Assembly (NCBI GenBank): GCA_027490955.1
Contig: JAIXXB010000006.1
Location: forward strand, 88,051 to 152,050
Length of the DNA stretch: 64,000 nucleotides
Origin: Rhodobacter sp.
Lineage (GTDB): Bacteria > Pseudomonadota > Alphaproteobacteria > Rhodobacterales > Rhodobacteraceae
Direction of reading: 5' to 3'
Shown: in pieces, positions 23,194-26,031 of the stretch
Layout: each line of letters begins with the position of its first letter
How positions within the stretch are numbered: the stretch's first letter is position 1
Translations under genes and position numbers: made by a program
The notes under the pieces: model-generated
What the model saw: only the letters and a program-made list of their open reading frames with translations
Databases searched by the model: none
What the model was told of the DNA's origin: nothing

Positions 23194-26031
23194 ATGAAAC
23201 CAGATTTTGCCCTAGATTTCCGCGACAACCAGATTGCCCTATTGCATCGGCAAGATACGGGCTGGGCCATTATTGGCCGTGTTGGGATGGACGATCCCGA
23301 TCTAGATGCGGCTATGGCCTATCTGCGCGCAACCGCGCTGGGCCTGTCGCCGCGTGGGGTGGCATCGAAACTGATTTTGCCCAATGAGGCAATCCTTTAC
23401 ACCGAATTGCCTGACCTGCCCTATGGCCAAGATCGCCGCGCCGCCGCCATCGAACGCGCGCTCGAAGGGCGCACGCCCTATGCGGTGGCGGATTTGGTTT
23501 ATGATTGGACCGATGCAGGCAGTTCGGCCCATGTTGCGGTCATTGCCCGCGAAACCTTGGAAGAGGCCGAGGGTTTTGCCAGCCAGCACCGCTTTAACCC
23601 CGTCTCATTTGCCGCCCTACCCGACCAAGGCGGGTATGATGGCGAAGTGTGGTTTGGCGCAACGCAATTGTCGCAATCGCTTTTGGCGCGCGGCGAAGTG
23701 GTCGAGCGGGATGATGTCACGCTCTTGGCGGTAGATTCGGTTGCTGCGCCTGCCTCCAATCTTGCGGCCAGTGATTTTGAAATGGGCGCAGAACAAGACC
23801 TATCGCCCGCCGCAGAAGATATGGTTGCCGATGATGTTGCGGCCAAAGATGCTGCAGCAAAGCCTGATCCATCCCCCGAAACCGCGCCCGAGGCGCAGGC
23901 CGAACCTGCCGCACAGCCGCAGGCGGACGGGCGCGAGGTGTGGCAAGATTTTGTCGAGGATACATCCGCTGCAGCCCCGCCCGTGGCAGAGGCCGCACCC
24001 GTGGCAGAGCCCTTGCCTGCGTCGGCCCCTTTGGTTCTGGCGCATCAGGTGGCATCCGAGGCGCAGGACAACCGCGCGCCAGAGCCGCCCGCCAGTTTCG
24101 AGGCAACCTTTGCCCAAACGCCAGAACCTTCTGCCGCCCCAACACCGCCCGAGGTGGAAGAAGCCCCGATGGCAGTGGATGTGCCGCTGATCGACGATCT
24201 CCCCCCGCCAGAGAGTTTTGGCGAAAAAACCCCCACCCGCGCCGAAAAATTGCTGGCGGCCTTTGCCGCGCGCCGCGCTGCCGCCCTTGCCAAAGCCGAA
24301 GCAGACACCAATGCGCAGCGCGTCGAACCCATGCTGCGCGCGGCCAAGGGCGATACGGCGCAAGCCAGCCTGCCGCTGGACGAGGCCGAGCCAAGCCGCG
24401 CGCCTGATACCGCAGGCACCCGCACGCGCAAATCAAGCAAAGCGCAGGTGGACTCCGCGCCAGCCCCCAGCGCCGAATCCGAAACGCTCACCGCCGCGCC
24501 CTCCACCCCTACGCCAAAACTGGGCGCGCCCGAGGTGAAACTGGGCCGCGCGCCTGATATGCCTGCCGTCTCTGGTTTGCGGCCTGCCATCGTCAAACAC
24601 GTGCCCGCCAAGCCGCAGCCATATCGGCCACAGGATCTAAAGGCCATGCCAAAGCCAAAAGTGCAGCCGCGCTTTGGAATGGGACTGGGATGGATCCTGA
24701 CGGCCGTATTGCTGGTGGCGCTGGTGGCGGCAGGGGCGTTGTCAGAACTTTTGATGACATCGTATAATGCGCTTTACGGCAAAGACAGCGACGTGGCCGC
24801 AGTGGAACCCGCGCCAGATGCCCAGCCCGCGCAGCAAGCCCTTTCGGCGCAAATCGCAGCGCCAAATGCAGCCGCGCCGAAGCTGACCGCAGCCACCATC
24901 GCAGCCGCCCCAGCGCCAGTTCCGCAAGCCTCAGTTACGCCCGCGCCGATTGCCTCCGCGCAAGCGCCCCTAGCCAGCCCAGTTGCCCAAACATTGCCGC
25001 CCACCAGTGCCGCAGATTTAACCCTGCCGCCGCCCGCGATATTTGCAGCCGCGCAGGCCCCTGCCACTGCCGACTCTGTGCCAGAAGCGGCGGGCAGCGC
25101 GGCCACGGCCCTTGCACCTGCCAATGCCGATCTGCCCGCGCCATTGCCGCGCCCCGCCGAAGGGGCTGCGGCAGACACGGCTGCCGCCATTGTGCAGGTG
25201 GTGCAGGGCAAGCCCGCGCTTACCCCCATTCCGCGGCCCGATGTGGTGCTTGCGGCCGCCATTCTTGCGCGCCCTGCCGCCAGCAGTGAGGCTGCGCTTG
25301 CGCCTTTGCCTGCGGCTGATCCTGCCTTGGCAGGGGCAAAGCCCTTGCCGCGCCCTGACTCGGTGCTGGCCGCCGCCGCTGCAGCGGCCCCCGCGCTGGG
25401 CCCACCACCTGCCGCTGACCCGACCTTGGCCGATGCCCGCCCCGCCAAGCGCCCAGATGATATTTTGGCCGCAGGGCGCGCCGCGCGTCTTGCCGCTGCC
25501 TCGGCCTCGATCGTTGCGGGGGCGCAAGACGCCGTGGCCGAAGCCGCCCTTGCCCCCACACCGCTGGCAGATGATCCCAACCTCAGCCCCTTGGCCGTGG
25601 CCGTCAGCCGCTTTCCTGCGCCGCGCCCTGCAGGGCTGAAATCTGCCTTTGAACAGGCTTTGGCCGCCGCCGCCGCGCTAGAACCTGTGCCAGAGGCCAG
25701 CCCCCCTGCCGAAGAGGTGGCCAGCAACGCGGCCCCTGCCGATGCCAGTGTCGAAGACGAAGTTGGCCTAGATGGCGCTGCGGCCGAGCGCAGCGTAGTG
25801 GCAAAGCAGGCCACGCAGCGCAATATGCTAAACCTGCAAGACACGAATTTGATTGGCATATTTGGCAGCCAATCCAACCGCTACGCGCTGATCCGCCAAC
25901 CTGGTGGCAGTTTCAAACGGCTAAAGGTTGGCGATCGCTTTGACGGCGGGCGCATTGCCGCCATCACCGAAAGCGAAGTGCGCTATGAAAAGGGCGGCGA
26001 TTTGCTGGCCCTGCGCATGCCAAAAATCTAA
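23194..26031 (+). CDS. Large single-span protein with PilM/GspL-like N-terminus and PilP/GspC-like C-terminus
   Basis: A 945-residue protein without an established function. Residues 1-170 (FALDFRDNQIALLHR, then LILPNEAILYTELP) look like the actin-like cytoplasmic domain of PilM/GspL assembly proteins. Residues 180-485 are a Pro/Ala/Glu-rich linker. One membrane span lies at about 495-520 (WILTAVLLVALVAAGAL). A second Ala/Pro linker follows with repeated short blocks such as PLPRPDSVLAAA. The last 70 residues (NLIGIFGSQSNRYALIR ... RLKVGDRFDGGRIAAI) resemble the PilP/GspC homology-region fold. Domain calls are by eye. No other pilus or type II secretion gene is near. Confidence 0.7.
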   Translation: MKPDFALDFRDNQIALLHRQDTGWAIIGRVGMDDPDLDAAMAYLRATALGLSPRGVASKLILPNEAILYTELPDLPYGQDRRAAAIERALEGRTPYAVADLVYDWTDAGSSAHVAVIARETLEEAEGFASQHRFNPVSFAALPDQGGYDGEVWFGATQLSQSLLARGEVVERDDVTLLAVDSVAAPASNLAASDFEMGAEQDLSPAAEDMVADDVAAKDAAAKPDPSPETAPEAQAEPAAQPQADGREVWQDFVEDTSAAAPPVAEAAPVAEPLPASAPLVLAHQVASEAQDNRAPEPPASFEATFAQTPEPSAAPTPPEVEEAPMAVDVPLIDDLPPPESFGEKTPTRAEKLLAAFAARRAAALAKAEADTNAQRVEPMLRAAKGDTAQASLPLDEAEPSRAPDTAGTRTRKSSKAQVDSAPAPSAESETLTAAPSTPTPKLGAPEVKLGRAPDMPAVSGLRPAIVKHVPAKPQPYRPQDLKAMPKPKVQPRFGMGLGWILTAVLLVALVAAGALSELLMTSYNALYGKDSDVAAVEPAPDAQPAQQALSAQIAAPNAAAPKLTAATIAAAPAPVPQASVTPAPIASAQAPLASPVAQTLPPTSAADLTLPPPAIFAAAQAPATADSVPEAAGSAATALAPANADLPAPLPRPAEGAAADTAAAIVQVVQGKPALTPIPRPDVVLAAAILARPAASSEAALAPLPAADPALAGAKPLPRPDSVLAAAAAAAPALGPPPAADPTLADARPAKRPDDILAAGRAARLAAASASIVAGAQDAVAEAALAPTPLADDPNLSPLAVAVSRFPAPRPAGLKSAFEQALAAAAALEPVPEASPPAEEVASNAAPADASVEDEVGLDGAAAERSVVAKQATQRNMLNLQDTNLIGIFGSQSNRYALIRQPGGSFKRLKVGDRFDGGRIAAITESEVRYEKGGDLLALRMPKI

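Follow-up and report, generated by a model that had tools for sequence, protein, structure and literature searches.

A GspL-like and GspC/PilP-like domain fusion conserved throughout Rhodobacteraceae and retained in genomes without a detectable secretin

The window analyzed here is a 64,000-nucleotide stretch of DNA from Rhodobacter sp. (GenBank assembly GCA_027490955.1, contig JAIXXB010000006.1, positions 88,051 to 152,050), and the gene in question encodes a fusion protein that begins with a cytoplasmic domain of the GspL fold and ends with a periplasmic HR domain of the GspC/PilP fold. Both ends share ancestry with components of the type II secretion system (T2SS), and the gene is retained across the whole family Rhodobacteraceae, including genomes in which no secretin was detected. 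We consider it somewhat better than an even bet (probability about 0.55) that the product is a T2SS-derived, secretin-independent scaffold or tether that would span the cell envelope outside any secretion machine.

The initial annotation of this DNA had read the open reading frame (ORF) as one protein with PilM/GspL-like and PilP/GspC-like ends, and both the ORF and the overall description are confirmed by orthologues of the same layout (roughly 40-67% identity) in the same neighborhood. The parts follow one another in the order GspL-like N-domain, cytoplasmic linker, membrane span, periplasmic linker, and HR-like C-domain. Residues 1-172 are of ordinary composition, and the compact C-terminal domain (about 875-945) comprises about 70-85 residues. 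The two Ala/Pro-rich linkers, originally estimated at about 300 and 350 residues, measure 327 residues (Ala+Pro 37%) and 354 residues (Ala+Pro 48%). The single span that had been claimed corresponds to one strong hydrophobic segment in the hydropathy profile (19-residue Kyte-Doolittle maximum of 2.45 at about 498-516). A K/R-rich stretch (KPKVQPR) lies just before the span, which indicates an N-in/C-out topology with the N-terminus predicted to be cytoplasmic. The fusion protein should thus be a bitopic protein of the inner membrane.

The N-domain was modeled by AlphaFold2 with a predicted local distance difference test (pLDDT) score of 95.6, and the best Foldseek matches of this model in PDB are GspL (4pht), EpsL (1yf5), and PulL (5tkw), followed by PilM and, more weakly, FtsA. 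In hhalign, a 70-sequence alignment of the N-domain matched 19 alphaproteobacterial GspL cytoplasmic domains over residues 5-145 with a probability of 98.3 and an E-value of 2.2e-14, and the controls (one reversed, five column-shuffled) gave E-values of 0.31 or worse. A Pfam and NCBIfam scan of the window copy alone returned nothing convincing for this domain; TIGR01709 (GspL) matches 16/49 orthologues (best E-value 2.7e-7), and Pfam T2SSL scores it weakly (best E-value 0.019). The membrane span of alphaproteobacterial GspL proteins is mostly located at positions 200-240, N-terminal extension included, and the N-domain is about the same size as their cytoplasmic domain, which leaves it short of a complete actin-like ATPase. 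By fold and by sequence it has the cytoplasmic domain of GspL, and its 172-residue single-lobe model is devoid of the complete two-lobe fold with a nucleotide site that defines PilM. The N-domain is therefore nearer to GspL than to PilM. Of the proposed PilM/GspL-like end, the resemblance to the actin-like part of secretion and pilus platform proteins was borne out by structure prediction and fold search, with GspL ranking ahead of PilM, and the GspL-type fold stands; a full actin-like domain does not, as only one lobe is present. Two other candidates were rejected. A direct descent of the N-domain from PilM does not fit the scores, which are higher for the profiles and structures of GspL, and the sole PilM-family (PilM_2) match in the window genome is MreB. 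A weak PDB profile match to designed TPR proteins (7e-5) sums many insignificant repeats and is contradicted by the model.

For the C-terminal domain, PF04351 (PilP) matches the window copy with an E-value of 1.5e-4, below the curated cut-off, and is found in 54/58 orthologues. The AlphaFold2 model of this domain (pLDDT 75, core 78-91) is most similar in PDB to PilP (3jc8, 2lc4, 2y4y) and to the HR domain of GspC (3oss, PulC 6hcg). Its profile was also aligned to small alphaproteobacterial HR proteins, which were chosen by position alone as products of the second gene downstream of gspL in T2SS loci; the E-value was 1.5e-13, compared with 0.027 or worse for reversed or column-shuffled controls. 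Both the fold and the profile similarity expected of GspC/PilP HR domains are thus present, in agreement with the first reading of this end, and neither end was modeled with a fold foreign to the actin-like or PilP/GspC families.

Genomic context outside the family ties the two ends to one operon. When 289 genomes of the class were searched with a profile of the N-domain built from 8 orthologues, one credible match was obtained outside the family (E-value 7e-5), which is gspL in an operon of the order gspK-gspL-gspM-(small HR gene); another class-level match, in genome G362, was dismissed as an unrelated ORF. For 15 of the 19 class-level C-domain matches outside the family, a GspL identified with a GspL query lies no more than 4 kb away; among the other four, not placed beside GspL, two adjoin a GspE/PilB-like ATPase gene and one has a fragment of a secretin as well as a GspM-like ORF as its neighbors. 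The gspL, gspM, and HR genes are adjacent in these T2SS operons. Since separate searches with the N- and C-profiles reach the same T2SS operons, the protein is a fusion of the two ends of such an operon, and by these sequence comparisons the resemblance of both ends to T2SS parts is beyond chance, as the controls fail. The protein joins the ends of a gspL-gspM-gspC/N operon without its middle: after the span, the periplasmic ferredoxin-like (PilN-type) domain of GspL is missing (no PF05137 match), and only the spacer and the HR domain follow. We infer that the cytoplasmic domain and membrane span of GspL were joined to the HR domain of a GspC/PilP-like protein, possibly through loss of the stretch between the GspL span and the HR domain, after which the linkers would have lengthened. 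The ferredoxin-like domain and GspM would have been dropped in this event, and the fusion would have been domesticated early in Rhodobacteraceae as a stand-alone scaffold.

The window genome is placed in Rhodobacteraceae by its closest relatives, which are MAGs of Pseudorhodobacter and Rhodobacter. The distribution of the gene was studied in 296 genomes of the order, all belonging to this one family. The first N-profile matches 293/296 genomes and the C-profile 295/296. In the three genomes without an N-profile match, a diverged N-domain precedes the C-domain, and in the one C-negative genome (G187) the gene is near a contig end. Orthologues of the fusion gene are therefore present in 296/296 genomes (one copy being cut by the contig end), nearly always in a single copy, with an N-domain identity to the window copy of about 40-60% across genera and with invariant residues. 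Across the family the locus is syntenic, including a SIMPL gene, a methionine-type pyridoxal phosphate (PLP) gene, a KefB-like antiporter gene, and a CarD-like gene. The fusion gene is family-wide, syntenic, and nearly always single-copy, and it is no one-off of the window genome.

Retention of the gene does not depend on a detectable secretion machine. The window genome has a single secretin and a single T2SSE-type ATPase; their genes lie on the same contig, separated by about 3 kb and accompanied by a CpaB-like ORF, and represent a Tad system. INDEPENDENCE from secretion machines was observed in the family: 20/296 genomes have no detectable secretin, and the N-domain is present in all 20. 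Among these 20 genomes, seven have no match to the T2SSE-family ATPase, and three more have sub-threshold matches only. Within genus g7, the domains of secretin-free genomes are not detectably more diverged than those of the others (Mann-Whitney p 0.11 for the C-domain and 0.39 for the N-domain, with few genomes compared). The suggestion that the protein is an orphan is strengthened by this persistence. The T2SS (gspD, gspE, etc.) that accompanies GspL was not found in the same genome; the gene is unlinked to the tad/cpa locus, as well as kept without a detectable secretin; and it has neither adjacent T2SS genes nor, in the window genome, the T2SS secretin expected for GspB/OutB. Most sampled genomes of g7 (e.g., G022, G054, G201, G284, and G291) have no secretin match and several have no T2SSE-type ATPase match, which suggests that Tad was lost or never gained there.

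The two linkers differ in their constraints. The length of the cytoplasmic linker varies from about 20 residues (L197, L204, L206) to about 530, while the periplasmic spacer spans 298-487 residues in 27 orthologues and about 268-340 in the shortest forms. In these 27 spacers RPxx[LI] occurs 53 times vs. 6.8 expected from shuffles, although the sequences are related and the counts are not independent events; in the cytoplasmic linkers it occurs 4 times vs. 4.9 expected, i.e., with no excess. The minimum length and the motif excess together point to a spacer under selection rather than a free filler, and this spacer perhaps carries putative docking sites. No known domain was significant in the periplasmic spacer by Pfam. 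Spacers of other genera contain the blocks YAxTGIW (37/57 orthologues) and RP[RK]xRP (43/57), and further blocks are shared among the spacers of the 57 orthologues (e.g., L006, L094, and L109), namely DDxYxxSIDP, LDxRGLVxATPEGAL, and RPRxRP. The window protein has none of these blocks, which are possible candidates for periplasmic docking sites.

If the protein is an envelope-spanning scaffold, its N-domain would serve at the inner membrane as a nucleotide-independent docking site for a partner from the cytoplasm, the long spacer would cross the periplasm and present repeated RPxxL sites, and the HR domain would attach to a partner in the outer membrane or cell wall that is not a canonical secretin. 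The cytoplasm would thereby be linked to the outer envelope in the manner of GspC, GspB/OutB, or TonB. A stronger version of this proposal, which we put forward only tentatively, is that a T2SS assembly-platform operon collapsed into one family-defining secretin-independent scaffold, whose HR domain would bind a new class of outer-envelope partner.

Several points weigh against secretin independence, and two of them speak for an accessory role in the Tad pilus: the HR domains of OutB, GspC, and PilP bind the N0 domains of secretins (PMC9239104), and 276/296 family genomes have a secretin. Besides, most of the secretin-free genomes belong to genus g7, where the C-domain is among the most diverged and its function is possibly relaxed. 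The absence of a secretin is judged by one Pfam model in draft genomes, and in one of them (G173) a full-length match to the T2SSE ATPase lies near a contig start, so that its secretin may simply not have been assembled. The spacer motifs may be relics of composition; the window protein is without several blocks of other genera. No paper describing the fusion protein was found in the literature searched. As a Tad accessory, the protein would bind the N-terminal region of CpaC by its C-domain and the CpaF ATPase by its N-domain, filling the GspL and GspC functions that Tad loci seem to lack, and Tad is indeed the only secretin system of the window genome. However, the gene is kept in the 20 secretin-free genomes, at least 7 of which are also without a T2SSE-family ATPase match, its domains show no detectable extra divergence in the few secretin-free genomes of genus g7 compared, and no Tad gene adjoins it in the loci inspected. 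In Pseudomonas aeruginosa, RcpC provides the periplasmic alignment of the Tad system (PMC12307814); the window genome has a CpaB-like ORF. Taken together, N0 binding by HR domains and the role of RcpC make a Tad role possible, but not required, and we regard it as quite unlikely.

Alternatively, the protein might be a cell-division or polarity scaffold, in which the N-domain, acting in the manner of FtsA or PilM, recognizes a divisome or polar protein by its short tail, and the cell wall or outer membrane is sensed by the C-domain. FtsN, ZipA, and TolA share a similar layout, FtsA is among the weaker structural neighbors of the N-domain, and a universal, syntenic, nearly always single-copy gene is what would be expected of core envelope functions. 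No genomic link to division genes was seen, though, the one-lobe N-domain is without the second lobe of FtsA, and CtrA, CcrM (GANTC), and CenR-type sites are not enriched upstream of 57 orthologues; this explanation seems to us unlikely. It is very improbable that the protein is a relic of a lost T2SS persisting without a selected function: its linkers appear to be of low complexity and no other T2SS gene adjoins it in the loci inspected, but a relic is expected to decay, whereas the ORF is intact in almost all 296 genomes, the N-domain keeps its identity level and invariant residues, and the periplasmic spacer holds its minimum length. Finally, GC-rich DNA yields long antisense ORFs here, e.g., 24774-25877 (-), and one might suspect that the Ala/Pro-rich frame arose by chance or was miscalled; the orthologues in 296 genomes, which keep the frame and have folded ends, refute this. 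The secretin-independent scaffold is thus the reading that we prefer. The features of the gene and its product are listed in Table 1.

Table 1. Coordinates of the fusion gene and its parts in the window
Feature	Position	Strand	Basis
Whole gene, 945 aa, ATG start, stop at 26031	23194..26031	+	ORF, orthologues, synteny
N-terminal domain, one-lobe GspL-type cytoplasmic, residues 1-172	23194..23709	+	AlphaFold2, Foldseek, hhalign, TIGR01709
Cytoplasmic Ala/Pro-rich linker, about 320 residues	23710..24672	+	Composition; length varies across the family
Single transmembrane span, about residues 494-516	24673..24741	+	Hydropathy; basic residues N-terminal of the span
Periplasmic Ala/Pro-rich spacer, about 354 residues	24742..25803	+	Spacer lengths and RPxxL-type motifs
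C-terminal HR-like (PilP/GspC) beta domain, core about residues 880-942	25774..26028	+	PF04351, AlphaFold2, Foldseek, hhalign
Periplasmic [RK]Pxx[LIVFM] motif 1, residues 681-685	25234..25248	+	
Periplasmic [RK]Pxx[LIVFM] motif 2, residues 720-724	25351..25365	+	
Periplasmic [RK]Pxx[LIVFM] motif 3, residues 753-757	25450..25464	+	
Periplasmic [RK]Pxx[LIVFM] motif 4, residues 811-815	25624..25638	+	

In the window, the gene is preceded by a SIMPL/DUF541 gene on the opposite strand and followed, 75 bp away on the same strand, by a KefB/KefC-type antiporter gene. The original statement that no pilus or secretion gene is adjacent holds, as neither the window locus nor any of the 26 related loci used for comparison showed one beside the fusion gene, and a hidden pilus operon nearby was rejected on the same grounds. 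The antisense ORF mentioned above (367 aa), which lies opposite the Ala/Pro-rich linker, is probably a by-product of GC-rich codon usage.

Diverged fusions were found at three loci, L195, L196, and L197 (genomes G110, G229, and G141, respectively); one of them is only 614 aa long, with almost no cytoplasmic linker, and could serve structural studies as a minimal construct. Among the matches listed, nearly half of the family genomes (22/50) encode the HR-like C-domain a second time, as a stand-alone protein, which was not found in the window genome. It is about 88-120 aa long and has no obvious membrane span or signal peptide, and the copies inspected (L081:1513-1779, L083, L084, L085, and L087) adjoin purF, an SDR gene, and surE; judging by these features, it looks like a duplicated C-terminus acting in the cytoplasm. 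In two genomes of about 0.9 Mb (L169 and L177, f68), an HR-like domain ends a coiled-coil periplasmic protein beside a GspE/PilB-like ATPase gene, and these loci may represent an unusual filament system in reduced genomes.

Each of the domains is already known; the literature searched held no description of their combination, of the missing machine, or of such a fixation throughout a family. As a rule, GspL and GspC/PilP are separate subunits, and their coupling is central to the link between a cytoplasmic motor and the outer membrane in T2SS and type IV pili; a natural covalent fusion reveals which of their ends can be connected. That the fusion persists where no machine was detected implies that these parts are able to do something useful alone. 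If the protein is indeed a secretin-independent scaffold, parts of a secretion machine have become general cell-envelope architecture. As a near-universal protein of a large, ecologically important marine and soil family, it is an easy and consequential target for a knockout, e.g., in laboratory strains of Rhodobacter sphaeroides or Paracoccus denitrificans.

Since the tested defining features fail, the protein was not filed as a member of GspL, GspC, PilM, or GspB, although it resembles each of them in part. With GspL of T2SS (PF05134/TIGR01709), notably its short-domain alphaproteobacterial form, it shares the cytoplasmic fold and profile followed by a single N-in span; it differs in that the periplasmic ferredoxin-like domain has given way to a long spacer with an HR domain and that no gspE, gspM, or gspD partner is encoded nearby. 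GspL binds the N1 domain of GspE; several genomes that carry the fusion gene have no match to a GspE-type ATPase. The HR domains of GspC/PilP (PF11356/PF04351) have the same six-stranded beta fold and profile and likewise form the periplasmic end of a membrane-anchored protein, whereas in the fusion this domain stands at the extreme C-terminus after an approximately 350-residue spacer, is joined to a GspL domain, and is kept without a detectable secretin. PilM of type IV pili (PF11104) has a related lobe-one fold, but it is a two-lobe protein solved with ATP/ADP (5eou, 5eoy, 5eox), in contrast to the one-lobe, membrane-attached fusion, for which no nucleotide site is expected. TonB and TolA consist of an inner-membrane span, a long Pro/Ala-rich periplasmic spacer, and a small C-terminal domain, a layout like that of the fusion; their folds differ, and no ExbB/TolQ-type partner is encoded beside the fusion gene. 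GspB/OutB, described from gammaproteobacteria and betaproteobacteria with T2SS, is without a GspL-like domain, and the target of its HR domain is the secretin N0 domain; like the fusion, it crosses the inner membrane once and has its HR domain in the periplasm, and in OutB this domain anchors an outer-membrane component (PMC9239104).
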